Positions 2,620 through 40,900 of a stretch of 47,975 bases of DNA are shown here, in pieces. The notes under the pieces are model-generated. The model saw only the letters and a program-made list of their open reading frames with translations. It made no database searches and was not told the origin of the DNA. Numbering within the stretch: position 1 is the first letter of the stretch; every line of letters starts with the position of its first letter. Source of the DNA: a virus; IMG/VR virus record IMGVR_UViG_3300008267_000079, positions 1 through 47,975 of that record; one strand, 5' to 3'. The translations under genes and the position numbers were made by a program.

Positions 2620-5600
2620 ATGGCTAACATTCCAGGTATATCAGGATACATTCAACCTGGCGCATTTGCAAGAGATCGCGTTGTTTCCAAGGCTGCCAGC
2701 ATTCCTGGCGGTTTAAGGGTTGCTGCAATTATGGGCGAGGGAATTAAAGAAGAAGTAATCGTAGAATCCGCCGCTGGATCTGGGCAAGATGGCTCTGCCG
2801 CTTGCTCTCCAACAGGTAGTGGCGATGGAAGATTCTTCAGAATAAGTAACTATCCAGTTATTTCCGGAAGAACAGAGGTAACTCTAAATGGAGCACAGCT
2901 TTACGGAGTAGAAGACGAAATTGATGAGGCTGGATTTGATTCTAAATATGATTTTAGAATTGATATCAATACTGGATGCATTGAGTTACAAAAGCCATCT
3001 ATTAAAGATCAAAATGGAAAAGTTTACTCCGTTAGCTCTCTAAATATTGGAAATGGCATTGTTCCAGATACAAGCGCTCCATGCAAAGTACTGGATGTCC
3101 TTGATGACAGCGCTCCAGCAGAAAGATGGACCTTAAAGTGTGTCTCTGTTGTTAGAGATTCAACCGGATCTCCAATTCCTGGCAGGGCCACCTTCTCTGT
3201 AATTGGAGATGTCTCTGGTCAAGTTTATGATCAGACTGGCAATCCAATCTTCTTCCACAGCACATATTTTACTAGTGGATCAGGTGCAGTATCTGGAAAT
3301 ATAGATCCATGTGTTGACGGCTATACCGTAGCCTCATCAGATGACTTTGGACAGGGAACTCCAGAGTTAGATGGTGGCGAGACACCAGACACTACCAATA
3401 TCTTTACATTCTCCGGAAACTTAGTAGCACAAGGACAGGCACTTCCAGGTGACTACCTCTGTGTTGATGGCTATACCTCTGTAGAGATCAGCAGCATTTC
3501 TTACGATTCTGGAACAGATACTACCACTGTCAGCCTAGCAACAGACTCTTTGGGCGGTGTTGGTGTTGCTAGAGACTGGGAAATTAAAGCAACAAATATT
3601 CTTATAGATGATGTTGCAACAGGTAAATTTACCGGCTCAGATGTCGGCAAAGTTGTCTTGGCCTGCCCAACAGGAACCTTTGATGGTGGAAAATTTGTAA
3701 TTACAAAAGTTACAGCCAACAATCGTGTTAGAGTAAGAAAGTATGAGGATGATTCTGTTGCCTTCCCCGCTCAGAGCGGAGTTGGTTTATCTGGAATTTC
3801 CCAGGATGGCATTACCTTCCATCTTGTTGAGACAAATGGAATTCTTTTGGCCGGTATTAAAGAGGGTACTATACCTTTCGAGGTAGGCGATAGAATTTAT
3901 GTAGATGTTGCATCTAGAGCCCTAGGCTTTGGCGACAGACTGGTTGCTAGATATATTTATGAGGGAGATCTAAACGATCCACAGTTCTTTACAGATGCAG
4001 AGCTTCTATTCCAGAAGCACGGACTACCATCTGAGGAAAATACACTTTCTCTTGGCGCTCAAATGGCCTACGAGAATGGTGCCCCAGGAATCTTGGCCAT
4101 TCAATGCAAGCCACCAGTACCAAGAAGGACTACTGCAGAATTACTGACAGCAGTAAATTCCCTTGGAGTTGGCGGATTCACAGGATGTCTAGATGGTTCT
4201 GGAGCTATTGATGAGGACCTTTGCGGTGTTGAGGATCTTAGATTTATTATTCCAAGGCCAACATCAGGTTTGAGATCTGGTAAGCCAGATGCAGATTCTA
4301 GAGTTAATATCTTTGTCAATAGGGCTGGTGTTGAGACTCAAATTTTCCCAAATAAAGTTGAATTTTATAACAGCCAGCTAGAGACAGATGCTCAGCAATT
4401 AAGCTTTATCACAAGCTCAGATAATCCATTCTCTTATACAGTTGTAAATACTAATACAGAAATACTCTTCACAGCAGAAGATGGTGTTATGATGAGCGCC
4501 TCTGATGGAAGAACTATATCAAGCCTCTATCTAGACCTTGATGGATCACATGCTGGCGCAACAATTGTTATTGAATCCATGGAGGATTTGTCTGGTACTA
4601 TATATACCAGTCTGGCAGATATTTCAGAGCAGCTATATGGACCAACACCTCCCGATGTTTCCGCAGAGGTTGTTATCGGCTCTGTTGTTTCAGATTCCAA
4701 GGCAGTAATTGTCGGATCTGGAACCAATACACTAAACTTTACTAACAAATTTGTTAATGTACAGTTTTTTGTAAAATCTGCAAATACTACCAATGTTAGC
4801 GCAGCCCTATTGCTTCATAAGGATTTGGTCAAGAGCGGTGCTATTAAGAAGGGTGATGGTATTAGAATTACCTATGTAGATGAAAATGATGCTGATTACT
4901 TTGACACCAATTGGTTTACAGCCTTTGAAAAGTTAGAGTCTGCAGACGCCCAGATTGTAGTACCCCTACCATCTAGCACAGTCTCTTCTATCTTTAAGGC
5001 TGCAGTTGGCCACTGCGAGAATATGAGCTCGATCGCCAATAGAAAAGAGCGTATGGCTATCATTGGCGCTCAGATTGGCCTAACCCCAGCCAATATCCTT
5101 GGGGAGTCTTCTGCGGCAGTAGAAGATCTAGGTGTACTTGAGGGGATTCAGGGCGATGACCCACTAGAGGTTTTGACTGGAGATGTAGAAGATCTTGCTA
5201 ATTATAAGCTAAGTGATAATTACACTTCACCAAGGGCAGTTTATCTTTACCCCGATTCTATCGTCAGAAATATCTCCGGAACTAACGTTGCTTTACCTGG
5301 GTTCTATATGGCCACAGCAGTTGCAGGTCTACTGTCTGCCACACAGAATGTATCTATACCCTTAACCAACAAGGTTCTTCAGGGCTTTACACTGACAAGG
5401 GATAAGATCTTTAGGCCAGTCATACTTGATAGATTAGGAGGAAGTGGGGCCACCGTTATTCAGCCAATCCCAGGCGGAGGCAAGGTTCTGGCCGGCAGAA
5501 CAACTAGTCAGAGTGGCTATGTAGAAGACGAGGAGATCTCCATCGTCTTTATTAGAGATAGAGTTAAACAAGTTCTGAGACAGTCTTTGGCAGGATTTAT

Positions 5601-5817
5601 CGGCGGTGTTCAGGGTCCAGATACTCTAAGCTTAATTTCCGCTAGAACCAAGGTTATCATGACAGGACTAGCATCACAGGGTCTGATTACTAGCTTTGGT
5701 AATATTAGAGCCTCTAGAGATAAGGTTGATCCAAGGCAAATTAACATTTTCTTGCAATTTGTACCAGCATACCCAATAAACTTTGTCTTTATAGATATTG
5801 AAGTTGGCGTAATTTAA
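2620..5817 (+). CDS. Contractile tail sheath protein (enlarged)
   Basis: The sheath surrounds the tail tube and contracts to drive it through the host envelope. The N-terminus (GISGYIQPGAFARDRVV) and the C-terminal domain, from about residue 892 (LPGFYMATAVAGLLS) through LTRDKIFRPVILDRLGG to QINIFLQFVPAYPINFVF, match the tail-sheath family. In between, ENGAPGILAIQCKPP at about residue 485 and IVVPLPSSTVSSIFKAAV at about 779 look like core domain strands. At 1065 residues it is much larger than T4 gp18 (659). The excess lies in residues about 60-460 and 560-760, which are Gly/Ser/Asp-rich beta sequence and probably protrude outward. CVDGYT occurs twice there (about residues 230 and 282). A tube gene follows after 13 bp. 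Base composition is less AT-rich than in the flanking genes, as expected of a highly expressed gene. Confidence 0.93.
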   Translation: MANIPGISGYIQPGAFARDRVVSKAASIPGGLRVAAIMGEGIKEEVIVESAAGSGQDGSAACSPTGSGDGRFFRISNYPVISGRTEVTLNGAQLYGVEDEIDEAGFDSKYDFRIDINTGCIELQKPSIKDQNGKVYSVSSLNIGNGIVPDTSAPCKVLDVLDDSAPAERWTLKCVSVVRDSTGSPIPGRATFSVIGDVSGQVYDQTGNPIFFHSTYFTSGSGAVSGNIDPCVDGYTVASSDDFGQGTPELDGGETPDTTNIFTFSGNLVAQGQALPGDYLCVDGYTSVEISSISYDSGTDTTTVSLATDSLGGVGVARDWEIKATNILIDDVATGKFTGSDVGKVVLACPTGTFDGGKFVITKVTANNRVRVRKYEDDSVAFPAQSGVGLSGISQDGITFHLVETNGILLAGIKEGTIPFEVGDRIYVDVASRALGFGDRLVARYIYEGDLNDPQFFTDAELLFQKHGLPSEENTLSLGAQMAYENGAPGILAIQCKPPVPRRTTAELLTAVNSLGVGGFTGCLDGSGAIDEDLCGVEDLRFIIPRPTSGLRSGKPDADSRVNIFVNRAGVETQIFPNKVEFYNSQLETDAQQLSFITSSDNPFSYTVVNTNTEILFTAEDGVMMSASDGRTISSLYLDLDGSHAGATIVIESMEDLSGTIYTSLADISEQLYGPTPPDVSAEVVIGSVVSDSKAVIVGSGTNTLNFTNKFVNVQFFVKSANTTNVSAALLLHKDLVKSGAIKKGDGIRITYVDENDADYFDTNWFTAFEKLESADAQIVVPLPSSTVSSIFKAAVGHCENMSSIANRKERMAIIGAQIGLTPANILGESSAAVEDLGVLEGIQGDDPLEVLTGDVEDLANYKLSDNYTSPRAVYLYPDSIVRNISGTNVALPGFYMATAVAGLLSATQNVSIPLTNKVLQGFTLTRDKIFRPVILDRLGGSGATVIQPIPGGGKVLAGRTTSQSGYVEDEEISIVFIRDRVKQVLRQSLAGFIGGVQGPDTLSLISARTKVIMTGLASQGLITSFGNIRASRDKVDPRQINIFLQFVPAYPINFVFIDIEVGVI

Positions 5818-5830
5818 GGAGTAATTTAAG

Positions 5831-6469
5831 ATGGCATCTTATCCATATACAGGAACATTATTTGACTCTGAGGCAGTTACTGGTGCAAAAACAAGAACTG
5901 CTTTAAGCACCCAGATTATTGTCTACGTTAATAATCAGCCAGTTGGGGCAATCCAATCATTTGAGGAAAGACAGCAGAGATCTATTAAGAGAATCTTTGA
6001 GGTTGGAACAGATGGTACAGTAGAAGCTGTACCACAGAGCGCAGCAACAATAGATTTGACAGTTAATAGAATTGTTTTTGACGGTCTATCACTTCCAGAG
6101 GCAATGGCAAGAGGTTTTAGAAATATTCATTCACAGAGAATTCCATTTGATATCGTAGTTATCGATAGATTTACAGGAACAGAGGAAGAGGGTGGTGCAA
6201 TCGTCACCACTTATCATAACTGCTGGTTTGGATCACTTGGAAGATCATATTCAGTTAACGACTATACCATCGCAGAAAACGCATCAATCACTGTCGAGTC
6301 AGTTAGTACCGAAAGAAACGGCGCACCAGTCGCCAGCAGCCAGGGCGTTGGTGGTGGTAGAGATCTTGGCTCAGAAGGTCGTCAAATTGACGCAATTGAG
6401 CAGGCTGCAGATTATGGTACTTATAGAGGAAGCTTGGACTTCCCAGGTCTTATCAAGGCAGCATTCTAG
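5831..6469 (+). CDS. Tail tube protein
   Basis: This 212-residue protein is placed directly after the sheath and before the chaperones, the standard place for the major tube subunit that polymerises into the inner DNA channel. The sequence is beta-rich (TQIIVYVNNQPVGAIQSFEE, IPFDIVVIDRFTG, TYHNCWFGSLGRSYSVND), compatible with the gp19-like tube fold. A Gly-rich C-terminal tail (GVGGGRDLGSEGR) follows. AAGGAG lies upstream of the ATG. A strong terminator lies 20 bp after the stop, so sheath and tube can be expressed as a separate unit. Family membership rests on context and general fold pattern. Confidence 0.8.
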   Translation: MASYPYTGTLFDSEAVTGAKTRTALSTQIIVYVNNQPVGAIQSFEERQQRSIKRIFEVGTDGTVEAVPQSAATIDLTVNRIVFDGLSLPEAMARGFRNIHSQRIPFDIVVIDRFTGTEEEGGAIVTTYHNCWFGSLGRSYSVNDYTIAENASITVESVSTERNGAPVASSQGVGGGRDLGSEGRQIDAIEQAADYGTYRGSLDFPGLIKAAF

Positions 6470-6558: not shown

Positions 6559-7011
6559 ATGTCAAAAACATCTGTTTCATTAGATTCAAAAAAAGAAGAA
6601 GCACCAGGGACTGCTCAGGCTCCTGCTAAGAAAATGACTCTTAAAAGCTTAAAAGACCTTATTTACCTGGGAAGAATAGAGAGAACTGTTTCTTGTGGAG
6701 ATTTTACTTTTGTTCTTAAAAGTATTACTGCTGAAGATCAAAAAAATATGGTGGCAAAGGTCATGAAAATGCCAGAAGATATTAGACTCTTAAATGCAAA
6801 AATAGTATCTCTTGCTTTTTCTGTAGAGAAAGTAAATGGAGTTCTTATAGAAGATTTATCGGAAGATGATGATTCTGTTGATTTGTTTGATAAAAAAATA
6901 AATGTAATAAAAAATTTACAGCTATCTGTTGTTAATAAGTTATTTAAAAACTATGAAGAAATATTGGAAGAGTCAAACTCCCAGATTGAGATTGAAGAAG
7001 TAAAAAAATAA
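6559..7011 (+). CDS. Tail assembly chaperone, short form (gpG-like)
   Basis: This 150-residue protein lies between tube and tape measure and ends directly at a -1 slippery sequence, the arrangement of the G/GT chaperones that coat the tape measure during tail assembly. Residues 1-25 are charged and low in complexity. The rest is mostly helical (LKSITAEDQKNMVAKVMKMP, INVIKNLQLSVVNKLFKN). The last codons are GTA AAA AAA TAA. Most ribosomes should stop here to make the short form; a fraction shifts to make the 291-residue fusion. The start has a GGAG about 13 bases upstream, which is a rather long spacing. It is not expected to be part of the mature virion. Confidence 0.82.
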   Translation: MSKTSVSLDSKKEEAPGTAQAPAKKMTLKSLKDLIYLGRIERTVSCGDFTFVLKSITAEDQKNMVAKVMKMPEDIRLLNAKIVSLAFSVEKVNGVLIEDLSEDDDSVDLFDKKINVIKNLQLSVVNKLFKNYEEILEESNSQIEIEEVKK

Positions 7012-7045
7012 TAGAGGGTCCAGAATCAAAAATTCTTTGGACCCT
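7002..7045 (+). promoter_or_regulatory. Programmed -1 ribosomal frameshift site
   Basis: The heptamer A_AAA_AAA spans 7002-7008 in the frame of the short chaperone, immediately before its TAA stop. After a 6-nt spacer, bases 7015-7022 (AGGGTCCA) pair perfectly with 7038-7045 (TGGACCCT). A further 4-bp stem (GAAT with ATTC, 7023-7026 and 7032-7035) lies inside, with a 2-nt bulge. Slippery site, spacing and hairpin all fit the canonical bacterial -1 frameshift signal. Confidence 0.92.
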
Positions 7046-7433
7046 ATCCAAGCACTGGGGCTGCCCAGTAGATGATGAGAGGATAAGAAAAATTAATTCC
7101 GCTCAATTGGCCTGGTATGGCCTTATGATTGGAAAGGATATGGAGGAAGATTTTGAATTTAATTTATCTTTCTCAGAATATATTGCCTCATTTATTAACC
7201 CTGAAGCAGTCTCTAAGATTAAGTCAATGAGAGAATCTAAGAAAAATGATAGATTTATGAATGATAATGAATTTGAAGAAATGATTAAAAATAAAGACTT
7301 CTTAAAAGTTGATTATCAGCATAGTAATCCTGCTAATGTTTCTAATAATATTGTAGAAAGAAAAGGTGCTAGAGATGTTCGGCTACCTAAAGAAATTTCT
7401 GGAATATTAAAATTAAATAGAGATAATTTTTAG
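7008..7433 (+). CDS. Tail assembly chaperone, frameshift extension (GT-like)
   Basis: This is the C-terminal part of the fusion chaperone, read as join(6559..7008, 7008..7433), giving 291 residues. The -1 frame continues without a stop from the slippery site: KKIIEGPESKILWTLSKH, then GCPVDDERIRKINSAQLA. It has no convincing start of its own; the TTG at 7107 falls inside the domain and lacks a ribosome binding site. The tryptophan-rich helical section and the C-terminal DVRLPKEISGILKLNRDNF tail fit the extension that links chaperone to tape measure in long-tailed phages. It ends 9 bp before the tape measure start, whose ribosome binding site overlaps its stop. Confidence 0.88.
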   Translation: MIEGPESKILWTLSKHWGCPVDDERIRKINSAQLAWYGLMIGKDMEEDFEFNLSFSEYIASFINPEAVSKIKSMRESKKNDRFMNDNEFEEMIKNKDFLKVDYQHSNPANVSNNIVERKGARDVRLPKEISGILKLNRDNF

Positions 7434-18092: not shown

Positions 18093-21000
18093 ATGAGCAC
18101 TCCATCAATTACATCGATTATAGTTGGCGCAATAAAAGAGACTGAAGATCAAGTTATTGTACAAATAAATTGTAATCCAGAGAGACCAGATTTAGATGGA
18201 TCTGGTGCATTTACAAATGCCATATCCGATGTTGTTATTCCTAGGAATGGCCAAAACTTCATGCCACTATCTGGTGGCGCAATTATTAGAATTTCTCCTA
18301 GTGCCACAAGTTATACTTTTAAAAAAAGTGATACCAAATCTTATGATTTAAAAGTACAGTCTATTAAAGACAATATACTTTCTAAATATTTACCAAATAA
18401 TTTAACAGATATATCTTTTGCTGGATATAAAGAACTAGCAGATTTAAGAATTTCTTTAAATAGAACTTTTTATGAAATTTCTAAATTTTTAGGCTCTGGT
18501 GAAAATTTCTACGAGAAAGATGGAGTTCCAGAGTTTATTTTAAGTAGCGTTTTTTCACCTGGTACAGCTACTGAGCTGCAGAATACTTATAATGCCAATA
18601 AACAAAAAAATGTTAGAGATGAAAATCTCTCTCCATTTTTAAGCTTTCAATTTATTCCATTTGAGATAATTCTCGAAATTTATTCAAGATTATCTGTTAC
18701 AAGACAAGATGCACAAGATGCCAGTCTTACAATAGGTACAGGGACTTTTGTAGGTAATCTTGGTATACAATTTTCTGAAATTTATAAAAAGCTAAAAGAT
18801 TTAAATGATAATCCTGGTGGCTATCAAGATGATGAAGCTCAGAATATTATTTCTGCTGCAATATTAGAGATACTTCCATATTATAGAATTGGAGAGGAAG
18901 TTATAATTGCCGAGAGCGATGATAAGTTGCAATTAGGCGGATATTATACATTTTTTAATTCAAATTTTTATATTAAAACACCAGACTTATCAGGAAGAGA
19001 TTCTACAGAATATTATAGCAATTTTACCACAAGAGAAAATGACGGTATAAAAGAGTCTTTATTTTATATTCTTGAAATTTTAGTTAAAGGAGATACCTCT
19101 TACGAATATTGTCCATTAGTTTTAAAATATAATCAGTTGCCATCTTTAACCCTAAAAGATGGAGAAATGACTTACCCAGATTCTTTTGGTAATCAATTTG
19201 ATAATCAGATTATTTATACAGGATTAGATTCTCTTTATGTAAAAGATCTTAAAAATGAATTAAATGTCTTTAATAAGAAGTTTTATTTATCACCATTAAT
19301 TAAATCTGAAATTGACAACAATAATATTTCAAAACAAAATAATGAGTTTAGTCTAGATAAAACTCTAGAAATTAACTATTCTCAGCCTATTGAGATTGCT
19401 ACAGTACCACTAGATAGAAAAGCATCATCATTTACTATTAGCAAGAAAAATCCTGATATTGTTAATAATTTATTTTTAAAATATGGAACAGTCCCTCTGT
19501 TTGAAAAAGAAGCGGCCACCTATGGTGTATCTTCTGCCGATACACTTTTGTCTTCATTAAATAGGCCAGAGATAGCAGTTGTTGATAGAGAAAGCAATAA
19601 GCTAAATGAAGCTAGAGAAGTTCTGCTTTATTCGACTCAGCAGTCTTATACTAGATATATTATTTCCGGAAATTCTCCAAGATTTTTATTTTCTATAAAA
19701 ACAAAACAAGTTGATAATAAATCTGAAATTGATTTTTCAAAAGATTTTTATGTACCATCTGATTTAACATCCCAGGTACCAACCCACTGGATAGAATTAG
19801 ATCATTCTATTAGTACTGAGAGTGATCAAGATATAATTTTGCAGCTATCTGCTAATGGCAAATCTAAGCTCAGGGAGTATTTTAAGGCAGGAGAGGCACC
19901 AGAAGTAACGGCTACCAAGAGAACATTTGATATCGGAGATCCTAATAATAAAATTTCTTTTGCCACCTATGTGTTTGATAGTGTAACTGGACAATTTGTT
20001 AGATTGCCAGGTCCAAATATCAACATCTCTCTTGGTGAGGCTAAGATAACAGAAATTAGTCCCAATGGATTCTTAGGTGGAAGTCCAATCAGAACTAACG
20101 ATTCTATAAAAATAGATATTATTGGAGAGAACCTAGGAGATGCAGAGGCTGCCTATATTATTTCCGGTGGAACAGGGGATAAATTAATCGCCAAAAAAGG
20201 CGATCCTGGATTTAGTGCTTCTGCAAATTTAGTTAAAATAAATATTGAAAAAAAATGGTCAGAAATTACTACCAATTTGGGTGATTTCCCTATCTATTTG
20301 AAAGTAAAGAACGCAAAAAATAAAGAAACAAATAAAGATATTGTTATCCATATTTCAGCAGATAGTGCTACCTCAGCAACACTGCCGGCCAAAGGTGTTG
20401 ATAAGATTAATTTTATTTCTCTTAACTCTATTTATTATCAACCAAAGGGTAAGGCTAAAGATCTTGTAGAGACTCAAATAAATGTTAATGGTCCAGATTC
20501 TATTCCTGTTTTATTTAGCGGAAATAATGTCAAGATAAGAGTTGGATCTAACTCTGGAATTTTTTCATCGCAAAATAAAAACAATATCTTTGCCTACCTT
20601 GCCTTTAAAGGAAGCGATGCCAAATCTTTGGTAGAAACATTTGGATTAAAAGAAGACGTAATTTCAATTACTGTTAATGGTGAAACTTACTATTCTAATA
20701 AAAAAATATCTTGGTATTTTGGAGATCAAAACTTTTCAAGTAATGGACTTTCTAATTTTGCAGATTTATCATTTCCAGGTCCAATAGAATATGGGGCCTA
20801 CAATGTCAGATCTCTAGTGGAAGGTCCGCTAAAACCTCAGAAGGGCTATTTTATTTTTTCAAATGAAATTATTACTTCTGACTATAATGTTTCTCTATCT
20901 GAAGCTGATAAATATTATCCAGTATCTATTCTTCAAATAGGTGCAGATGAATTGGACAGACCTGCTTTCGTCAACCCTCCGCATATCCTAGGACTTCTTG

Positions 21001-24000
21001 CTAGGGTAGACGGAAGAGAAGATGGTGTTTGTAATTTTGATATAAGAAATATTCAATCTGCAACAAAACAAAGTAAAAGTGGAATAGAATATAAGATTAA
21101 GAAAGAAATTCCATTAAGGATGTTCTTAAACTTAAAGTCAGCAAATATTAAAAATGAAAAAATATCTATTAAAAAAACATTAGATCATTTCTTTATTTTA
21201 TTTAATGCTCCTAGAAAAGATAAAAAATATTACAAAGATTGTTATAGATTTTATATAGGATCTAAAAATATCACAGGTTCTTTATCTGGAAAGATAAAAT
21301 ATATTTCAAATAATATTGCCTGTGCTTACTTTAGAAATATATCATCTTTAAATCTAGGCGGATATTCAAACGTATCTATTTCTGTAAGTGATTATGAATA
21401 TAATTCTAATTATGGATCAGAAGTATATACTAAGGTTTCTAAAACACTTACTTCTTCACAATATCAAATTGTAGAGTCAAATGATTCTAAACAAATCAAA
21501 TTAAATGGTAATCTAGAAAGAAGAATAGAAACCTATGATAGCAACTTCTCACCAAGAACTACCTCTCTAGTCCTTCCTATTGTTAATTCTGGTGAGCTTT
21601 TCCGTTATCAGAGATATGGCTATCTAGCTCAGCCAAGCCCCAACGTAGCATCGAGTAGCTCTACCGCCATCTATACCGCAGCAACCAGGGCTACTGGTCC
21701 ATCCGATTTATATATTCGATTTATATCTCCAATAAAAATTAGACCAATTAATTTAGAACTTACTTTTGGAAATCTAGATTCTATTACCAACGCTCAAGAT
21801 GTCAATAAAGTCTTTGGAGCTTATCTTTCTGATGGTGTTAGAAAGAAAAATGTTGCCAATCCAACTCAAAATATTCTTGAAGAAAATGTAATTATTACAA
21901 ATTACAGTACAGTAGATATTTTACAGTCAAGAGTTGACGCGGCAGCTATTGCAGAATCTGTTTTGGCAGAAACGGCCAAAAAATCTGCAGATATTTTCTC
22001 TAGAAATAATGATGTAACTAGCAACAGTGGATCATCAAGCGCAGAGTTATCTCTAGCAATAGAGTCAAATAACTCTCTCTTAGACTTAAGCTCAGCAACT
22101 GCTAGTCTGCAGGAAATTTTAGACAATGTAAATTCAACTGCTGCCGAAATAGCTGCCGCAGTTGAACTAGTCAACAGTCTCTTCAGGAAGGCTTCAGCTC
22201 TAACAGATGCTCTATCCAGTGCCAACTTTAGTTTGTCAGGATTGGTAGATTCTGCCTTGGATTCTACAACTGGACCTAGTGGTAGATCTACTTTAATAAA
22301 TTCTTTAAATCAATATTATTGTTATTTACCAGAAACAATTGAATATAATGAAGCCTTTATTTCACAGTCTACATCTAATGAATTATTAGTTGTAGCAACT
22401 AGTTTAATTGAACAAACTCATGTTATAGAATCTAGCATTCCAGAGGTCTATAGCATTACTACTACATCAGATGGTAAAGAATATTTTCCTGATTCCTTTG
22501 GAGATGTAAAGCTAGGATCCTCACCTCTAGAGATAACTGTAAAGGTTAAAGGTGGAGATCTTGATTCAAAGTTTGAGCTAGGCGGATACAGATGTAGCTC
22601 AAGATTCGATAGAATTGATGGAGAGATTTATATCTATAATGTTATTGTAGAACCATCAATTTATACCCTTACTTTTGCCGGATCTGATTGTGCCAAGTTT
22701 GGCATAACAAATTCTAATAGAGATAGGCTTAAAGCCGAAAGAGTTTTGGATCCAACAGCAGGGCAGGATATTGATAAGTTTTTTGACAAAGCAAAGAGTG
22801 CAATTGATAAACAATCTAAAAAAGTCTTAGATAGAATTGTTGAGGAGAAGGGTAAGTTAAAGGTTGGTCCAGTTATTTATGATAAAGCTATGGCAACCAA
22901 AGAGGCCCTAAAGAGCTTCTGTGATATGTCGTTCCATTTAACTGCCGAAGTATCTGCGCAATTGAAATTTTTAAAGATACTATATATTCCTATTAAAGTT
23001 ATTTTTTGTATTATAGACGTTATTTGTGCTCTATTACATCCTGTTAAACTAGCATTTGCTGTTATTAGACTTTTTGCCTGTTTATTTGATTTAATATTAT
23101 TGCTGCCACAAATTTCTATGCCAGTTCTATTTTTAACTATAGCACTGCATATCCTAGAATTATTGCTTTGTGTAATTCATAAAATTTTAGGTATTGTTGT
23201 TGCAATTAATGAAATTGTAACAGCATTAGATACTGCTGTTAGAAGAAGAGATTTTGAGTCTATTAAAAATCTAGAACTAGCATTAAATGAACACCTTCTA
23301 ACAATTGAAGCCGACCTGCAGGTTCTTGAACCAATTCTTCAAATTCTTGGCTTAATTTTAGAGCTGTTACAGCTAGCCTTCTCCTTCCCCTGTCAAATAA
23401 CACAGGATGAAGATGAGCCAGCCTGTATTGATCCATCCATGTTGGCAGGGCTTATTGTTAGCAAGATAGCTCCAAAAGGAGTCATTGTTCCAGATGCCAT
23501 GATTCCATTGGCACAGGATTATACTAATCTACCTGTCGATAGAACTGGAGAGAACGGTAACACACCTGATTCACAGAGTAGTGATCCAGAAGAAATTCTA
23601 GATGTAGATTACAACAATCCACCGGAGGCTGCTGATGGCACTGCAATTACAAATGTTTTATTTAAAGTCTCTGAGGCAGTAGGCAATGGTACCGTCACAG
23701 TTGTTGCTGATAACTCCAGTTTTGCAGGAGCTATCCTGCCAGACTTGGTTGACTCACAAACAAATGAGAATAAAACTGTAATAAATGGTGGATTCTTTTC
23801 TGGAGATCAAAATGGTGACAGCTTTATTGATAATATTAATTATGGAAAATTAAGATTTGCCAATGGAGAATTTGATGCATCATTTGGCATCTCCTGTACC
23901 AAGTCCAAGAAGAGATTCTCCTTTGGAACTGCAACTTTGGACCAGAAAAATGATCCAAGATTTGTAGAGTTTCAATTTAAATCTGCCGGCCTAACCAGTG

Positions 24001-26108
24001 ATTATGCCTGGACTATTATCGGGATTTTCTTTAAAAAGAAGATTATTGACGATTTATTTACACTTGATTCACCACCTGCCATGTTGCGTAAAAATGGCAA
24101 TAAATTAGAAATACATAATGGTAGTGATATCAATAAAGAAAACATAAAACTAATCAGCCCAATAGATGGATTCTCTGATTTTATTGAGTATGCAGGACCA
24201 GGATCAGATGGCACACATACTTATAGGGCTAAGCCATTGGTTGCCAATATTGAAGTTATTGAGTCAACAATTAATCCAGTTACAAAGGAGCCTGTTACTA
24301 CAACTACCACTGTCACAAAGACATTTGGAGGAATTCCCTCTTTTGCTATTGTTGACGAAAGATTTAATGTTTACTTCATTGAAGAAAATGGTCTAGCCAT
24401 TAGATTTGATGAAATAGATGGTATTAAATATCCTGTAATTGATAACATTTTTGCAAAAATGATTAACTTCCCAGCTGCAGAAACTCAAAAGTTTGATAGA
24501 GAGGAAAGACAGGTTATTAGAAAAACTGCTTCTTATCAGCAGAAGGCCGGATTATTTAAGAGTAAGATTGTAGATGACTTACTAGTATATTGTGCTCAAG
24601 GTGGAAATCCAAACACAGGCATCTTCAATGTTGGATATAAAGAAGAGCTTGGTGATGCCATTCTAAAGATGCAGGCAAATGCTGCTTATTTTGAAGGATT
24701 ATCAATAGACACATTCTTGGATATTGATGATACCTCCTCGCCATCCTGGCTAAATGTAGAGGATGATAAGACACTATTTGGATCCTCAAGCCCTATTGGT
24801 ATCTTCGGAGAGCCAGATGGATCACCTCCTACTCCATATACCATTTACATTAATTATAGAAAATTAAATGATGAACTCTTCTCAGAAGATGGTGCTACAA
24901 TTTCTAGCTCTAGCGGTTATATTGGAGTTAATGGTGCTACAAGACTTGCTAACTATTTGTCAGGATTGGTCTCTCCAGGTTCTGGAATAACTTTTGAATT
25001 CCCATACCCAGAACATGGAGTCTACGATTTTGCCAATGGAAGCTGGGCTGAAAATGATGACTTCCAATATGCCATTAACACGATTGATGTTTACAATTTC
25101 CCTCAGATTCACTTTGTCGATCTAAGACAGGTGGCAGATGATATTGCTGCAGCTTGCGGTGCTTCACAGACAAATGAATTACTACTAGACCTTCCAGGCT
25201 TTACCTTAGACTTTGGAGGCGATGTAGTAGAGCCGTACCTAGGGTGTTTAAGGGATTTTAGAGACTTCTTTGTTGGAGATAATGGAATTGTTTCAAAGAT
25301 AAAAAATAAGCTTGCCTCTGGTAGCATTCCAGATCCAATCTCTATTGTAGATGTCAGAGCCACATACGATAATCTTGTTGCCTGTACAACATTAGCTATA
25401 GATGATGCTTGTAAGTTTGTAATTAATCCACTAAATACTACTTTTAAATTAATTGAAGACTCAGACGAGACTGATCTAGAGGAATATGTTGATCCGTCTA
25501 CTGTTGTTACCGAGGTTGTAACAGATGGGGCTGTTTCTACCATGCCAACCATTACTGGAGCCATGGAATATGCCTCCGGAATTGGTGATTCGGTAACCAT
25601 TAAAGCTGGAGAGTCTGCCACAATTCAAATTATTCCCAGAGATTCTTATGATGATGAAATTATTGAGTCATTAGATGCTAGGCAGAAAATTTCAATTACA
25701 ATAGTCTCAGATACTACCTCTGGTGCTTCTATTGAGAAAGTAGATTCAGAACAAGAATTTTTATGGTCAAAAACAGGATCTGTTTATACTGCTAAAATCA
25801 CATCAAAAACACCTGGAAAAGTTACACTTAAGGCTAGTATTTGCAATGTAGTTATTCAGGCTGTAACCGATAGAGGCATTTCAACATCTATTACAACCTC
25901 AGGTGATTCTTCTGATTGTATACCAGATGCTGCTGACGCTACTGTTACTACAACCCCTGAAATTTTCCCACCTGGAGCTTTAGTCAAGGTAGATAGAATT
26001 TTAACTGTACTATTCACAGCAAATAATTTTAATGATAATGTTGATGATTCTGGCTCTGAAAATCCAGTTATAATGCCACAGGTTGCATTTACAGATATGG
26101 TGAATTAA
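18093..26108 (+). CDS. Giant virion protein with internal membrane-like helices
   Basis: I do not recognise the 2671-residue protein as a whole. It lies between the spike and the gp25-like wedge, so it is probably a baseplate or tail-tip component. Residues about 650-740 (KITEISPNGFLGGSPIR, then SIKIDIIGENLGDAEAAYI) look like an IPT/TIG Ig-like domain. Residues 1281-1389 are Ala/Ser-rich helix. Residues 1626-1713 and 1746-1768 are strongly hydrophobic (IKVIFCIIDVICALL, LFACLFDLILLLPQ, LELLLCVIHKILGIVVAI) and could form about four membrane-spanning or buried helices. GDQNGDSFIDNIN near residue 1910 resembles a calcium loop. A second Ig-like module lies at about 2488-2590 (GESATIQIIPRDSYDDEI). 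There is no ribosome binding site; the stop overlaps the next ATG (TAATG). Confidence 0.6.
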   Translation: MSTPSITSIIVGAIKETEDQVIVQINCNPERPDLDGSGAFTNAISDVVIPRNGQNFMPLSGGAIIRISPSATSYTFKKSDTKSYDLKVQSIKDNILSKYLPNNLTDISFAGYKELADLRISLNRTFYEISKFLGSGENFYEKDGVPEFILSSVFSPGTATELQNTYNANKQKNVRDENLSPFLSFQFIPFEIILEIYSRLSVTRQDAQDASLTIGTGTFVGNLGIQFSEIYKKLKDLNDNPGGYQDDEAQNIISAAILEILPYYRIGEEVIIAESDDKLQLGGYYTFFNSNFYIKTPDLSGRDSTEYYSNFTTRENDGIKESLFYILEILVKGDTSYEYCPLVLKYNQLPSLTLKDGEMTYPDSFGNQFDNQIIYTGLDSLYVKDLKNELNVFNKKFYLSPLIKSEIDNNNISKQNNEFSLDKTLEINYSQPIEIATVPLDRKASSFTISKKNPDIVNNLFLKYGTVPLFEKEAATYGVSSADTLLSSLNRPEIAVVDRESNKLNEAREVLLYSTQQSYTRYIISGNSPRFLFSIKTKQVDNKSEIDFSKDFYVPSDLTSQVPTHWIELDHSISTESDQDIILQLSANGKSKLREYFKAGEAPEVTATKRTFDIGDPNNKISFATYVFDSVTGQFVRLPGPNINISLGEAKITEISPNGFLGGSPIRTNDSIKIDIIGENLGDAEAAYIISGGTGDKLIAKKGDPGFSASANLVKINIEKKWSEITTNLGDFPIYLKVKNAKNKETNKDIVIHISADSATSATLPAKGVDKINFISLNSIYYQPKGKAKDLVETQINVNGPDSIPVLFSGNNVKIRVGSNSGIFSSQNKNNIFAYLAFKGSDAKSLVETFGLKEDVISITVNGETYYSNKKISWYFGDQNFSSNGLSNFADLSFPGPIEYGAYNVRSLVEGPLKPQKGYFIFSNEIITSDYNVSLSEADKYYPVSILQIGADELDRPAFVNPPHILGLLARVDGREDGVCNFDIRNIQSATKQSKSGIEYKIKKEIPLRMFLNLKSANIKNEKISIKKTLDHFFILFNAPRKDKKYYKDCYRFYIGSKNITGSLSGKIKYISNNIACAYFRNISSLNLGGYSNVSISVSDYEYNSNYGSEVYTKVSKTLTSSQYQIVESNDSKQIKLNGNLERRIETYDSNFSPRTTSLVLPIVNSGELFRYQRYGYLAQPSPNVASSSSTAIYTAATRATGPSDLYIRFISPIKIRPINLELTFGNLDSITNAQDVNKVFGAYLSDGVRKKNVANPTQNILEENVIITNYSTVDILQSRVDAAAIAESVLAETAKKSADIFSRNNDVTSNSGSSSAELSLAIESNNSLLDLSSATASLQEILDNVNSTAAEIAAAVELVNSLFRKASALTDALSSANFSLSGLVDSALDSTTGPSGRSTLINSLNQYYCYLPETIEYNEAFISQSTSNELLVVATSLIEQTHVIESSIPEVYSITTTSDGKEYFPDSFGDVKLGSSPLEITVKVKGGDLDSKFELGGYRCSSRFDRIDGEIYIYNVIVEPSIYTLTFAGSDCAKFGITNSNRDRLKAERVLDPTAGQDIDKFFDKAKSAIDKQSKKVLDRIVEEKGKLKVGPVIYDKAMATKEALKSFCDMSFHLTAEVSAQLKFLKILYIPIKVIFCIIDVICALLHPVKLAFAVIRLFACLFDLILLLPQISMPVLFLTIALHILELLLCVIHKILGIVVAINEIVTALDTAVRRRDFESIKNLELALNEHLLTIEADLQVLEPILQILGLILELLQLAFSFPCQITQDEDEPACIDPSMLAGLIVSKIAPKGVIVPDAMIPLAQDYTNLPVDRTGENGNTPDSQSSDPEEILDVDYNNPPEAADGTAITNVLFKVSEAVGNGTVTVVADNSSFAGAILPDLVDSQTNENKTVINGGFFSGDQNGDSFIDNINYGKLRFANGEFDASFGISCTKSKKRFSFGTATLDQKNDPRFVEFQFKSAGLTSDYAWTIIGIFFKKKIIDDLFTLDSPPAMLRKNGNKLEIHNGSDINKENIKLISPIDGFSDFIEYAGPGSDGTHTYRAKPLVANIEVIESTINPVTKEPVTTTTTVTKTFGGIPSFAIVDERFNVYFIEENGLAIRFDEIDGIKYPVIDNIFAKMINFPAAETQKFDREERQVIRKTASYQQKAGLFKSKIVDDLLVYCAQGGNPNTGIFNVGYKEELGDAILKMQANAAYFEGLSIDTFLDIDDTSSPSWLNVEDDKTLFGSSSPIGIFGEPDGSPPTPYTIYINYRKLNDELFSEDGATISSSSGYIGVNGATRLANYLSGLVSPGSGITFEFPYPEHGVYDFANGSWAENDDFQYAINTIDVYNFPQIHFVDLRQVADDIAAACGASQTNELLLDLPGFTLDFGGDVVEPYLGCLRDFRDFFVGDNGIVSKIKNKLASGSIPDPISIVDVRATYDNLVACTTLAIDDACKFVINPLNTTFKLIEDSDETDLEEYVDPSTVVTEVVTDGAVSTMPTITGAMEYASGIGDSVTIKAGESATIQIIPRDSYDDEIIESLDARQKISITIVSDTTSGASIEKVDSEQEFLWSKTGSVYTAKITSKTPGKVTLKASICNVVIQAVTDRGISTSITTSGDSSDCIPDAADATVTTTPEIFPPGALVKVDRILTVLFTANNFNDNVDDSGSENPVIMPQVAFTDMVN

Positions 26109-31956: not shown

Positions 31957-34900
31957 ATGGCATTAAGACCTAATACATTACAGGTAATCTCTTCTACTCA
32001 GATTGAGCTAGGGTTTAATAAAAAGTTATCTACACTGATTAATGTAGATAACTTTTCAGTAAGCTCTTCCGTTGGTCTGGAGGATAGTATTAAAATACTT
32101 GATACTCTTGTATCTGGATCGTCTATTGTCATAACAACTAATCCGCAAGTTTCTGGAACTTTATATCTCTTAATTTTAAAAGATACTGATCAGATTAAAT
32201 TTACAGCCGAAGACGGTGATAGACTGGCCAATGATGATGTTAGTCGATCAGTATATTTTGTAGGGGCTGACTCTTATAACCCTATTAGAGATAGAATTTT
32301 TTTAAATGTACCAAAGACCTACTCACTAGATGGCTCTAGTGTTAGAAATATCTTATCTGCTCAAGCAGAAGATCTTTATCAAGTTGAAAAACATATTGGA
32401 GAGATTTTATCTGATAACTATATTTCTGTTAGAGTTGAAGACGAATATAGAATCAGAGGCAGTGGTGCCAAGGATCGACTTGCCCATGAAAATGCCTACT
32501 TAATAGAGTCTATTTCAAAGTACCCATCTGGTAGAAATTTAATTTTTAAAGAGCTATATTTTAATTCTAATTCCAATATTAATTCTCAGAAATTTATCTC
32601 TGATTATCCAATTTCTTTACAGCAAGAACTTCATTCTGAAGAGATTATTTTTTCTAATTTAAGCTCTAATATTTCTGGTTACTTGTTAAAATTAGAAAAA
32701 AATAATATCATTAAACTAGAAAGCCTTTCAATTATTAAGGAGGCTAACGGTGCTTGTGATCAAATAGAGTATATTTATAATATTGAAAAATTAAATTATT
32801 CAATAAAAAATAATAAATACGATCCATATAGGGCCTTCTCCTATGCTAGCTTGGAGTCCAATGAAATCTTATTATCAGAATCTTCCGGCTTTATACTTCC
32901 ATCTCCAGGTGATACAATCAAGATATCTTACCTATATAAAGATGTATCTAGGAAAATCAATCTCGACTCTATTTTAGTATATAATACTGAAGAAGTTACC
33001 TATGAAGCCGTACCACAGGAATCTACCAGATTCTTTCTAAAGAATGCTCCAATTACTAATCAGTCTGGTGAGCTGGGCGTAGTTGGAGATCTAAACATTA
33101 GTAGCTCAAGCGGTGCAGTTTTTCTATATGAAATTCCATTCAACACTTCAAAACTACCATCTTTCGCCGGGGAATATGCGGTAAATTATCAAACAGGAGA
33201 GGTGATAGTTTTTGGCGGAGATAATATCTTCGGAACTAGTGATGGTCAGTATTATGTAGATTATTTTTATAGAAAAACATATAATAAAAATTTAGATTAT
33301 TATATAGATGGTACAGACTTTGCTGCTACTTCTGGTAGATCACTGCAAAAATCTTTTGCAATAATATCCTTTAGTTATCAGCAGCAGTTTGTAGATGGTG
33401 TCGATTATAAATCAGAAATACACACTGAAGTTTTAAATGAACAAGTTGAAGATAATTTGCTTTCAACTTTTACAATAAAAACAAATAATGGACCAATTAC
33501 AAAAGTATTTTCAATATATAATCAAACTAGTGGAGAAACTTATCAGCCTGTTTCATTTTATAAGAATGAAATTAACTTTTCAGGAATAAATCCCCCTAAA
33601 TTTTTATCTGCTAAAAATGCTATCCCAAAGTTTGATAAAGTACAAAATGAAAAAATTACGCCTTATTTTAAGTTTTTAAATTCTATTTTTAAATTTAAAA
33701 TTATTGATAACTCAAGTTTAAATAATATTGTGGTTTATCCACCAATTCCATCTCATTTGATCAATACAATATCTCCAGACTATCTTTTGAAAGACGCTGA
33801 TGGAAATATTAAAAATATGAACATTAAGTTTTTTGCAGAACCAGATGGAAATTTAAATATAAATTCTTTTGCACTAACAAGCTCTTCAGATCTTCCTGAC
33901 TTAAATGCAGAGTATTATATTGGATTAAATTGTCTATCGGTTCAGCTAGAAAATAAAAATATTTTAAATAAACAAAATGATGCAATTGGAAGCTTTATTG
34001 ATGCCTCGTTAACTTTAAGCGAAACTTACTTTGTTAATGAAAAATGTTTTTTTAATGATAGTGAATTTTATAATTCTTCAAAAACTAAACTGACCAATGA
34101 TCAAAACAATAAATCTATTATTACAATTACTTTGGCCAACTTACAAGAGGCCGGTGACTATATAGTAGATTATTTCAATGGAGTCATTCATGTTGCTGTT
34201 GGTTTAGATTACGATGTAGATTTGGGATACGCCTCCTATGATCATGCAAAGGTAATTTCTAACGATGTTAATATCATCACATGTGATGGAGCTTATAGAA
34301 GGAAGAGTCTATCTGATAAAAATTACTCTTATCTGATAGATAAAACATCTATAGATAATGGAATTTATTTTCAAAATTTAAATTCATCTTTTGAAATTCC
34401 AGATAACTCTACAGTCTTAGATCTAAATGGGGCTGAAGTAGAAACTAATTTGGTAACAGATGATTATCTAATTTATCCAAGATTGGCTCCAACTACATTT
34501 TATGGAATTTATAAACTAGATAGTATTTTTGGAAACAATTCATCTAACCCCAGCTATCGAGAGAGTGCCTCCTCTCAATATGCTGCGCTAGAATCAGTAA
34601 TAAACGGTGGAAAAAACTTATTTTTACCATCATTTAAGATAGAAAATAATTATCTAGATTTAAAAAATAATAAAATATTTAAAGCAAAAAATAATTCTGG
34701 ATATACTTTCTCTATTGAAAAAGAAAACTTTGGATTTATTTATAGCATTAAAAATCTGACTCTTAATACAGAAATTTCAGACCAAACACTTGATGGTTTA
34801 AAATTCCCTACCGAAATTTATAGCGTTGAAGATCTAGGCTCTCAAAGTAAGATTTATATAGATGCAAATTTAAATATCAATCTATCTAATGATTATATAA

Positions 34901-37900
34901 AAGATAGTATTGGTTTAAAATTTAAAATTGTTTCTTATGATAGCATTACTGGCGAGACTATTATTTTAAATATAACTGATATTTCTGGATATATAATTCC
35001 AGAGGATGGAGTCGCTAAAGTTGTTAATGAAATTTCTCTGACAGAAACAAGCTCTAGTATTTTAGTTAATATTTCTGAAGAATGTTTAATCAATAATTTA
35101 AACCAAATTCAAATTATTTATGTAAATGATTTTATCCCATTACCAGGAACTAGGTTAGCCACATGGTACAGCTCTGGAAGTATTTATTATGATTACACCT
35201 ATACTTCTGATTATTTAGTTGTTTCTTATGAGTATGGTGATAATGAAATTAACTGGCAAATTAATAACTCTATATCAGAGTCAGAACCATATTATGTAAC
35301 ATATAGATATGGTGCTTTAAGAGATTCTTTAAAAAATAATTTTGGTTTATTAACCAAGATTCCATTCTTTACCAAATTTCTACAAAACACAGATAGAGAG
35401 GTTTATAGGAAAGCATTACAAGGTACACTTGAAGCTTTTTCTAGAGGCCCTGTCATTTCTTCTTTTGAAAATCTAATAGAAAAATTTACAGAGCAGACAC
35501 CTGAAATTTCCGAATCTTTCTTTGGATCATGGATTTTGGGTAGAGATCTACTTAACCCACAAAATATAGATTACAGTGGTATACTTAAATTTGAATCTGG
35601 AAAATTTGATTCCGGTGTTATAGTTAACGATAATTTAACTATAACAACTCCAGCCAAGACAAGCATAAATTTGGACGAGGGGACCTTTAGCTGCTGGGTT
35701 AGAAATGATTGGTATGGCATTAATAATGATGCTAATTTGACTTTTGATTTTTCTAAAATGTCAGAAATTAATTTTAATTTAAAAATTAATTCTAATATTT
35801 TCAAAGATCAAAACTTTGAATTATTTATGTCAGATGATAGATATGGTGTCACAGATTGGACTGGAGATTACCTATCAATTTATAACTACCAATCTATTGA
35901 AAATGGTAGTGAGGAGATAGGTCCATTTGGTATCACCAAATACCATGATAGATTAAATTCTTCCAAATTTTCCAAGCACTCCATTTCCTTCTCCGCCAGC
36001 CTAGCCAGCACCTCGGAGTCACTCTCTGGGTTCTACAGGAATGACCCTGGAGCCCTCTCTGAGAGGCTTTCGACCTTTGGCATGGGTATGTTCCACTCTG
36101 GGATTCCAGCCTCTTCTAGAGGGTACCTGGGTGACGGGCTGGAGATCTTCCTCAGCTACTATACAAGCCCTTTTATTGTATCGGTTGGGGATGATAATAG
36201 AGTACTAATGTTAGCTGGAGCCCTAGCTCCAATTATCAATTCAGTTACTGAAAGAGTATATGTTTTAAAAATTGAAGATGAAGATGTTTCTCAAAATGAC
36301 ATCCCTAATTTCGATGGACCATATATTATCAGGAATTGTAATTGTGTTACCTATGAAGATTTACCTTCTCTTGAAAAATTTAGAGATGAAGATTTTAATA
36401 AGATAAAAATTCAATTAACTGAAGGAATAAATATTTCATATCTATCTGATAAGTTTAATATTATCGATGATATAAGTGGATGCAAATACGTTCTTGAAGA
36501 TGGAAGAGTTTATACAATTAAATCTTTTATAGATGCTGCTAATAAAGAAGTCAATTTCATTCCAAATGATGGAGTTATTTATGGTTTCTATGTCGACAGA
36601 ATTCCTGACAATCAGCAGCACATTACACAGCAAGGAAGTGCTACCATAAACTCCACAAAGCCTAGTGGAATTGGAATAATATTAACTCCAGTTGTATCTG
36701 TTATTAGGCAAAAATTTGATTCAGAATATTTATATAACTTTAATGCAAAACCAATTTTAGTAAACTTTACTACAAAAAATCTAAATCTAGATATAGATAG
36801 AAATCCAATTTTAAATAAAGTTAGTTTTAAACTTAATAATTATAATTTTGATGTTGCATATTCTGATTTACTTTTGGTAAATCAATATTCTGAATTATTT
36901 GATTTTCTAAACTTAAACTCTTGGTTTAACTCAGAGTATGGTTTAAGCTATGAAATAAATGGTATTTCTGATTTAAATAATAAAATATTTATTGGGTGTT
37001 TAGATTCTGTTGTTAAAAATAAAATAAATATTTCAAAATTTAATTATTCAATTGAAGAAGGTTTAGGTCTAGAAAATATTTATATTGGATCTTCAAAGGT
37101 TAATCCTAAGAGCTATATTTTTACAATTAATAAAGATCTTAACTATGTTTATGGCAGACCAGATATTGATACAGCTAGTAAATCTGTCTATATCTGGTTT
37201 GATGAAAATTGTATTGTAGATGGAAATAGTGTTGGAAGCTGGAAGTTCAAGTCAGTCATTCCAAATCAATCTATTATCTCAATTGGACCAGAAGGCTATA
37301 CGGCAATTGATGGCTATAATATAGACTATGAATCAGTAGAGCTTCAAGATTATATCGAAGGAAGAATAACGACTGATGGTGGTTTCTCCTATGCCAAGTC
37401 AACCCTAGATGATTCAGAGTGCCCAGTAGATTCTTGTGATGCAAGATATAGATTCTGCGGTCAATCACTGTTAGAAGGAGGTGGATGGAAATCTCTCTAC
37501 AATCTTGGCAGTGATCTTATCAATACAATTATAGGTGGAACAGAGCATAATATTTATGACTGGAAAAAATCTGGAGAATTTAGTACATCTTTAGTTAACA
37601 ATATATATAGAATAAATAATATTCAAGATTCAAATAGCTATCTTTATCTGCCATTAAATTGTATGCAAGATTTGCAATACGAAATTTCATTTAAAGTACT
37701 AGACTTTGATGAAAGTATTGTTGGGTCAAATTCTGGAAAATTCTCAGGCAATATCGTTGGTAATTTAATCGGAACAACCATTGCGGAAATTTTTGATGGA
37801 TCAAAAGATCTCAAGATTTCTCTTGCTGCCAGCTCTACTCAGAAGTATTTGGCCATTTTAGATGGTATCTCTGGAAGCATTTTGGATCTAGTGCCATTTA

Positions 37901-40900
37901 ATTGGTATGATAATACTTTTAATAGCTTACAAGTTACTGTAAATAAATACAGTGATTTAATTACAATTTATTATAAAAATAATATTATTTCAAGAATTAA
38001 ATATTCTATACTTGAAACTTACAACTATAGTTGCGATAATATATTAGAGCCTGGACTTTATATTAAGTTTAATGATAAAGATATAGTTTCTAATAACTTT
38101 ATAGAAACTTATAATCAAATATCTTTAGATATAGATTATATTGAATTAAATCTAATCTCTAGCAAGATTGATACAAATTTAGAAGATAATGATACATTAT
38201 TAATTCAAACAGATCTTATTGACTTTAAATTTTACAATAAAGCAGATGGATATCTTGATGCCTATGGATATATGGAGTCTGGATCAGACATAGATACCCT
38301 GGTATTGGTTTCTGATTTAGAGAGATATATTTTTGATTCTGGTGAGGATCTTTCTACAAATAGAATTTCTCTATATAAAGATTTTTATGGATACTTAAAC
38401 TTTAGAATTTATGATTCTTTATATCAAAAAGATAAAAACTTCTATAATATAGCCACAAATATTAAGGATTTTTTGCCAGGAGACTTCCACCACATAGGGG
38501 CTTCATGGAGGTTTAATACTGAGTATAGAAAAGATGAAATGCATCTTTTTATAGACGGCAAAGAAGTACCATCTCTCTATAAGTTTGGAGGATACGTTTC
38601 ACCCTGGAAAGATTCCAAGGTTGGAGATATTGCCAAAGATATTATTCAGGATTTTTCAGAGACAAAACTGTCCTTTTATGACACCTATAATGATGGTCAA
38701 GTTTTAGCCGGACAGAATTATCTATCATCATCTTCTGCCAACTTTGATCACAATGACGTTGGCAGATCTATCATTATCAAGGAAGGTGGTCTTGCTTCCG
38801 AGCTAAACAATAAAGCCTTTATTATAAGCTCTGTAGATGGAAACAGCATTTACCTTCTAGAGATAGAAAGTTTGACTCCATATTATTTTACAACTTCTAG
38901 TTCAAATATAGAGTTTTATAGACCTCCTCATGTAAACGGAAATTTACTAGGAACTATTTTTAGTTCTACAAAGTTTGAAATTTATCAAATAAATTGCAAA
39001 AAAGAAAAACAAGAACTAGGAGGAGTTTTATATACTGTAGATAATGGTGTTATTTCTATAGTAAATAATAATGTTGATAATCCAAAATATAGAATAAATC
39101 TAAACAATGGAAATATAGACTTTTTATACAAAGATATAAATTGTAATTGGCTTGGCTCAGTAGAAATCTCAGATCTTGATATATGGATTGAAAATTTTGG
39201 ATTAAATAAATCTAAAATTTTTGAAAAAATAAACTATTCTAGCAATAGAATATTAGGTCCAGAATATCTAGATCAGGTATCGGGCTTTATTACTAATATG
39301 CCAGAACCCATAGATTTGAGCTCTGTTAAGATCAAGAGGATCTTGCTGGATGACAACATTCCATCTGGAACTATTGACGAAAATATCTTCTCCTTTGAAT
39401 TAGAAAATGAACTGCTTGTAAGCTCTGAGTATCAAAGCCCTAATTATGGAAGGTTAATTTCCATTAAGTTTGATTCAGATAATATAGCTTATTGTACTGA
39501 TGGATATTCAGTAGAAAATTATCTATATATTGAAGGTGAAAATTTAGATGGATTTATTTCAGAGTATATTTATATAAATGAAAATAAAATATATAATCTT
39601 TCTAATTTCTATACCAAGATAACTAAAATTTCTGGAAATTTCAATATAATAGACAATAATTATGAACCATTATTGTTCTCAGTTTTTGAAACTAATAGTA
39701 TTACAGAAAGCAATAATAGTGGAAATTATGCTGATGTTTATAAATATTCAAATGGAATTTTTTACATCACCACCCATGGAAGCTATGGACAGGTATCTTA
39801 TGAGCTTCCATCTGGGCTGTATACATTCGATTATCCATCATATCTGAGTATTAGACTACCAAGAGTTGGTGATAAACTATTCCTAGGATCTAACATGCTG
39901 GGTCAAAAACAGCTTGGAGGACTCTTGGATGAGGTAAAAATTATCACTGAGATGTCTGGTGATACAAGAGATTATCAATCTAATAGTGTATTTTCAAAGA
40001 GTATTACAGAAGAATTTGTATCTAACAAAAAGCCTTGCCCTGATGAGCAAACTATCTTCTTGTCACATTTTGATAATCCATTTGAATTACAAATTAGAAG
40101 ACTTAGAAATAAAATATTTTTAAATACAAAAGATAATTTTAAATATAAGTTAAATGATAAAGATTTAGAATTATTGTCTAAGTTTATTAATGATAAAACT
40201 AAATTTATTTCAGAAATGAAAAAATTAGGATATACAGAAAGTATAGCCGAAGAAACTTATGTAGAATCTCATATGGCAGATGGAGGACCTCTTTTCAATG
40301 AGGCCAGATATGCTGATAATAATGAGTTGATTGTAGGCTTTAATAGCGTAAATAATACTTTTGGTTATTCTGGAAAATTCTATAATAGACCACCAGATAA
40401 TTATTCCGCTCCAAATATTTTTGATAAAAACAATGGAACAATAGAAGTTTGGGTTAGTCCGTTATTATCTACAGATACAGATAATCAAAGGAGAGTTATT
40501 TTTGACTCTTATAATGTCAAGACTGCATTTGTGGTGCCAACTTCTACTGGAATTATTGAGCTACCAACTTCTGCTGAAAAAATTGTTTCTATAACACTAC
40601 CTCAATCAAAAGATTCTAGTCTCTATAAGACAACTAGATATGATGAAATTTCTAGATCTAGAATATCTGGAAGATTAGACGGTGGTACTGGAACTTTAAA
40701 TAATTTTGCAAATGGTGCTATCTTAAAAAATGATGGAAAAATTGTTGTATTAAAAACAAAATTAATTAGCAATGATCCTGTTTTGGTCAAATACTTTGAA
40801 AAGAATTCAAATCAGTCCAGAATACAAATTTATATCGAAAGTGAAAAAATTTATTTTGAAATATCAAATAAATACTCAACATATTTGGTTTATCAAGTTA

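Follow-up and report, generated by a model that had tools for sequence, protein, structure and literature searches.

That tailed phages use programmed −1 ribosomal frameshifting was established decades ago, and the mechanism itself is not new. In phage lambda, the genes for the tail tube and the tape measure flank the gpG/gpGT pair, a tail assembly chaperone with a minor −1 extension; G and GT are produced at a molar ratio of 30:1, and the binding partner of G is the tape measure protein, that of T the tail tube subunit (PMC5009743). For the tail assembly chaperone of HK97 (PDB 2OB9), the solved form is the short product only. In Bacillus phage G (JN638751), the gene order comprises the tube-like gp180, the chaperones gp181/gp182 and the tapemeasure gp183, and gp182 is annotated as a tail assembly chaperone gene joined from two pieces, so that a frameshift homologous to the one described below has already been recognised in one cultured phage.

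The stretch of DNA analysed here (the window), a viral record of 47,975 bases, is AT-rich, covers only part of a genome and shares this gene order with Bacillus phage G. Its relevant features are as follows.

5831 to 6469, plus strand: tail tube-type gene (phrog_985 virion structural protein, E 1.4e-12), related to Bacillus phage G gp180 and used as the anchor for relatives
6559 to 7011, plus strand: G, the zero-frame product (150 aa, C-terminal VKK), a tail assembly chaperone as judged from PHROG profiles and fold
7002 to 7008, plus strand: slippery heptamer A_AAA_AAA, read in the G frame; a canonical heptamer stands here in 47 of 47 tube-anchored relatives and in 71 of 71 loci of the wider union
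7009 to 7011, plus strand: zero-frame stop TAA, abutting the heptamer and inside the spacer
7009 to 7014, plus strand: spacer TAATAG, 6 nt from heptamer to hairpin
7015 to 7045, plus strand: putative stimulatory hairpin with a perfect 8-bp outer stem (7015-7022/7038-7045), 10 bp being possible (7015-7024/7036-7045)
7002 to 7433, plus strand: T extension read at −1, with KK followed by 141 codons (7008-7430) and a stop at 7431-7433; the predicted G-T product has 291 aa
7443 to 9272, plus strand: probable tape measure gene (609 aa), with a Pfam TMP_3 hit that is weak and misses the curated cut-off (E 0.007) and the position of phage G gp183

The G gene ends in GTA AAA AAA TAA, and its outer stem is formed by AGGGTCCA (7015-7022), perfectly complementary to TGGACCCT (7038-7045). 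Read in the −1 frame from 7002, the sequence gives K-K-IIEGPESKILW... and stays open to 7430, with a predicted junction peptide VKK-IIEG across the region EEVKKIIEGPESK, while the +1 frame stops after 21 codons. A first-pass annotation had described an A_AAA_AAA run directly 5' of the zero-frame stop, a 6-nt spacer containing that stop, a perfect 8-bp hairpin and a −1 frame open for 141 codons, all of which agree with the sequence to the base. Such a motif is nevertheless not rare in this AT-rich window, whose genes contain 168 in-frame X_XXY_YYZ heptamers and whose plus strand has about seven further places with a heptamer ahead of a perfect 8-bp hairpin. The motif alone therefore does not single out 7002-7045, and the firm call comes from comparison with relatives.

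Relatives were fetched through the neighbouring tail-tube gene, which involves no selection for the frameshift. This yielded 72 loci, 65 of which (including the window) extend to the end of G and fall into 47 clusters at 95% identity around the site. All 47 distinct loci carry a canonical X_XXY_YYZ heptamer 0 or 3 nt 5' of the G stop, and in all of them the −1 frame is open past the heptamer, its stop lying 128-152 codons on unless the contig ends before. As a control, a heptamer lies no more than 6 nt from the stop in only 6 of 275 other gene ends of related loci, and in none of these six is the −1 frame open for 60 codons. Together with the chaperone profile and fold of G and the selection on the −1 frame considered below, these figures bear out the first-pass claim of a complete −1 frameshift signal in tail chaperone genes. 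A second fetch through the T domain added more divergent loci, giving a union of 71 distinct loci that includes Bacillus phage G and Virus Rctr197k; a T-anchored locus entered the count through a heptamer close to its junction, so the unbiased figure is the 47 of 47 from the tube-anchored set. The only T-anchored loci lacking a heptamer were L169, with a separate T gene, and L170, a partial T match that ends before the junction and was left out of the counts. A scan of genome contigs for relatives found none. Matches of the T domain to Lak megaphages were rejected as spurious, the matched frame being an unrelated Cys-containing protein. An apparent exception, L031 (and L030), was likewise set aside, as a sulfotransferase-like gene stands between tube and G and G runs off the contig; the inserted ORF (L031:4628-5688, and in L030) was recognised as sulfotransferase-like by eye.

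The breadth of this set bears directly on whether the frame break is genuine. Homopolymers are error-prone, and one extra A (A8) would fuse the frames into a single ORF, so a missing A from sequencing or assembly could have split one continuous gene. However, the same break recurs in 71 distinct loci from many samples as well as in the isolate Bacillus phage G, and also at U_UUA_AAA and A_AAA_AAG loci, so that this explanation is already refuted by the relatives and deserves practically no credence.

The heptamer has turned over repeatedly within this group. Over the 71 loci of the union, seven types occur, namely A_AAA_AAA (40), U_UUA_AAA (16), A_AAA_AAC (10), A_AAA_AAG (2) and U_UUA_AAG, U_UUU_UUA and C_CCU_UUA (one each), every one slippery and with both codons re-pairable in all loci. 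A quick tree built from G plus T without the heptamer residues implies at least 12 changes of the heptamer. Repeated swaps that always yield a slippery sequence argue that −1 ribosomal slippage is the property under selection. The first-pass annotation had held that relatives in which A7 is not kept would speak against the frameshift; a canonical −1 heptamer is in fact kept throughout these 71 loci, but A7 itself is swapped for U_UUA_AAA, A_AAA_AAC, A_AAA_AAG and others, so this expectation was too strict. In E. coli, A_AAA_AAA shifts less readily than A_AAA_AAG (PMC5009743).

The same turnover weighs on transcriptional slippage, in which RNA polymerase would add one A on the A run and join the frames in some mRNAs. 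This would suit the A7 run of the window and of 39 other loci, but the heptamer differs in 31 of the 71 loci, of which 17 carry U_UUA_AAA or U_UUA_AAG with no more than four consecutive A, and a conserved hairpin sits downstream, where the stimulator of ribosomal slippage belongs. Slippage by the polymerase is accordingly very improbable.

The zero-frame stop lies 0-6 nt 3' of the heptamer in 70 of the 71 loci. In the window and most relatives it abuts the second Lys codon, an arrangement that would also permit a later slip on a single P-site AAA with the stop waiting in the A site, driven by slow termination and giving an identical fusion protein. This route is closed, however, in the 21 loci with a codon between heptamer and stop (all U_UUA_AAA loci included), where the module is still kept, and both heptamer codons can re-pair in every locus; a single P-site slip is therefore unlikely. 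The competition of termination and shifting within the spacer, as put forward by the first-pass annotation, is an inference: under the accepted tandem-slip model the slip takes place before the stop codon has entered the A site, and a sense codon separates heptamer from stop in the U_UUA_AAA relatives. UGA does not occur as the G stop in the set of 47, an absence that is not notable given its use in only 9 of 212 other gene ends of these phages, and one locus of the wider set (L155) does use it.

The downstream hairpin is likewise supported by comparison. Compared with 300 versions of the −1 frame recoded synonymously, it reaches p ≤ 0.01 in 34 of 47 loci (mean z −3.5), any significance summed over the 47 loci being inflated by relatedness, while the window's own hairpin is modest by this measure (z −2.6, p 0.013). 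In the nine-member clade of the window, 97% of cells are paired across the helix 7015-7024/7036-7045, two pairs show compensatory substitution (GC to AU; UA to CG and GU), and the covariation score is reached by 5 of 500 shuffles. With its 6-nt spacer, the window thus has a structure with covariation support within 5-9 nt downstream of the heptamer. An uninterrupted helix of 10-12 bp is the commoner form in the clade, its version in the window being AGGGTCCAGA/TTTGGACCCT. The inner 4-bp stem of the first-pass annotation (7023-7026/7032-7035) is one possible fold, found as an alternative in some loci (L015, L020), but most relatives in the clade instead extend the outer helix to at least 10-12 bp. 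In other clades the 5' arm is fixed and the 3' arm occurs in two further registers, 9 nt closer or 2 nt further. An Rfam search of the window gave no match. Mean structure energy is −13.7 kcal/mol in U_UUA_AAA loci and −16.0 kcal/mol in A7 loci (Mann-Whitney p 0.01, uncorrected for relatedness), a lead rather than a result.

The T extension offers a further line of evidence, which concerns whether it is joined to G at all. The −1 frame of the window has its first ATG, GTG or TTG 33 codons beyond the junction, and the window and most relatives have none within the first 28-39 codons. Past the hairpin and before that first start, pN/pS is 0.34 in the −1 frame versus 1.03 and 1.18 in the other two, which contain stops; by this measure, the T region is under purifying selection in the −1 frame upstream of any usable start. 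Sequence comparison thus supports translation of the extension as part of the predicted fusion. If T were instead a separate gene expressed by re-initiation or from an internal start, the overlap of the stop with the −1 frame, the TAATG at the junction of two large-phage loci (L054, L073) and the ATG of T in L169 would all be in keeping with it, but the start-free stretch conserved in the −1 frame would not, and the heptamer would be left without an explanation, which makes an unfused T highly unlikely in the window. The extension is conserved in relatives and homologous to that of Bacillus phage G (hhalign prob 93, E 3e-7); profile searches of the T domain against known families found no family. 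In the divergent L169 (1340-1560), G ends in TAA and is followed by a perfect 13-bp hairpin with a T run, seen by eye, and then by T from its own ATG. The terminator scan did not list this hairpin, whose loop exceeds the length allowed by the scan. The G:T ratio in this single contig may be set by termination instead of frameshifting. Since T stands apart from G in L169 and has a start of its own, the G-T fusion is not strictly indispensable everywhere. In L054 and L073 (contigs of 332 and 335 kb), the TAATG overlaps the G stop, and re-initiation of T is possible beside frameshifting.

The identity of G is consistent across several approaches. Its PHROG matches are tail assembly chaperone families (E 3.3e-6 and 2.4e-5), one of which is also matched by up to 19 of 47 relatives, while Pfam returned no family and a PDB sequence search with the G profile no match. 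The AlphaFold model (pLDDT 78) has the HK97 chaperone 2OB9 as its top PDB match (prob 0.99, but E 0.03 and 16% identity), and in BFVD it matches tail assembly chaperones, including phage G gp181/gp182 at E 4e-7 and 2e-6. Profile, predicted fold and position directly after the tail tube gene therefore support the assignment of G as a tail assembly chaperone. The name tail tube for 5831-6469 would itself follow from its position after the sheath gene, and G lies between this gene and the tape measure gene, the latter recognised by its weak match and the gene order of phage G gp183. In Bacillus phage G the junction is A_AAA_AAC directly followed by TAG, compared with A_AAA_AAA and TAA in the window, T is longer (about 252 residues), the downstream hairpin appears weaker by eye, and G is only about 27% identical. 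The lambda pair shows no detectable sequence similarity to that of the window, whose phage differs further in its contractile tail, marked by the sheath gene, and in the stop immediately 3' of the heptamer. The sheath gene (2620-5817) is unusually long (1065 aa), with only about residues 763-1063 matching known sheath families, and the baseplate region of the tail module contains very long ORFs at 18093-26108 (2671 aa) and 31957-41439 (3160 aa).

Overall, the site is best explained as a −1 programmed ribosomal frameshift of the lambda G/GT type, with a probability of about 0.95. It combines an overlapping −1 frame lacking its own start, a conserved slippery sequence, a chaperone as first product and the expected gene position. 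The arrangement, its conservation, the selection on the −1 frame and the hairpin are evident from the sequence and its comparison among relatives. Most ribosomes would read AAA AAA UAA and release G, while the hairpin 6 nt downstream would hold a minority at A_AAA_AAA, where the two Lys-tRNAs would slip one base back; the stop would then be bypassed and the 141-residue T domain added to give G-T. By homology and position, lambda-like roles for the two products are most likely, in which many G and few G-T would bind the tape measure protein, T would recruit tail tube subunits, neither product would remain in the virion, and the ratio, as inferred from lambda, would matter. A more tentative proposal, with the odds against it, is that heptamer, stop and hairpin form a co-adapted regulatory module in which slip-site type and hairpin strength or register trade off to hold one G:GT ratio. 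Here, the stop within 6 nt in 70 of 71 loci would reflect selection on the stop contact, while the trade-off is suggested by the weaker hairpins of U3A4 than of A7 loci and the three registers of the 3' arm.

The new aspect is one of breadth, with a single module in about 70 sequences of related large phages that combines interchangeable slip sites and hairpins with a fixed junction. A large group of uncultivated phages, with contigs of up to 395 kb, thereby gains a well-supported annotation at a place where ordinary gene calling would break G-T into two and overlook the fusion. With their swapped slip sites and hairpins, the 71 loci also amount to a natural experiment in the maintenance of a frameshift ratio. 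A literature search found no report of this frameshift in metagenomic jumbo phages or Bacillus phage G, which says little since subscription papers lay mostly outside the search. At the divergent end of the union, Virus Rctr197k (KX853510) has a related tube protein (E 7e-4), a G-like ORF, a T-like −1 extension whose homology was judged by eye, and C_CCU_UUA at the equivalent place. It differs in being very divergent and G+C-rich, with its zero-frame stop 57 nt later and the two frames annotated as separate hypothetical genes. Its sequence (L090:5701-5770) probably contains an unannotated −1 frameshift at C_CCU_UUA.
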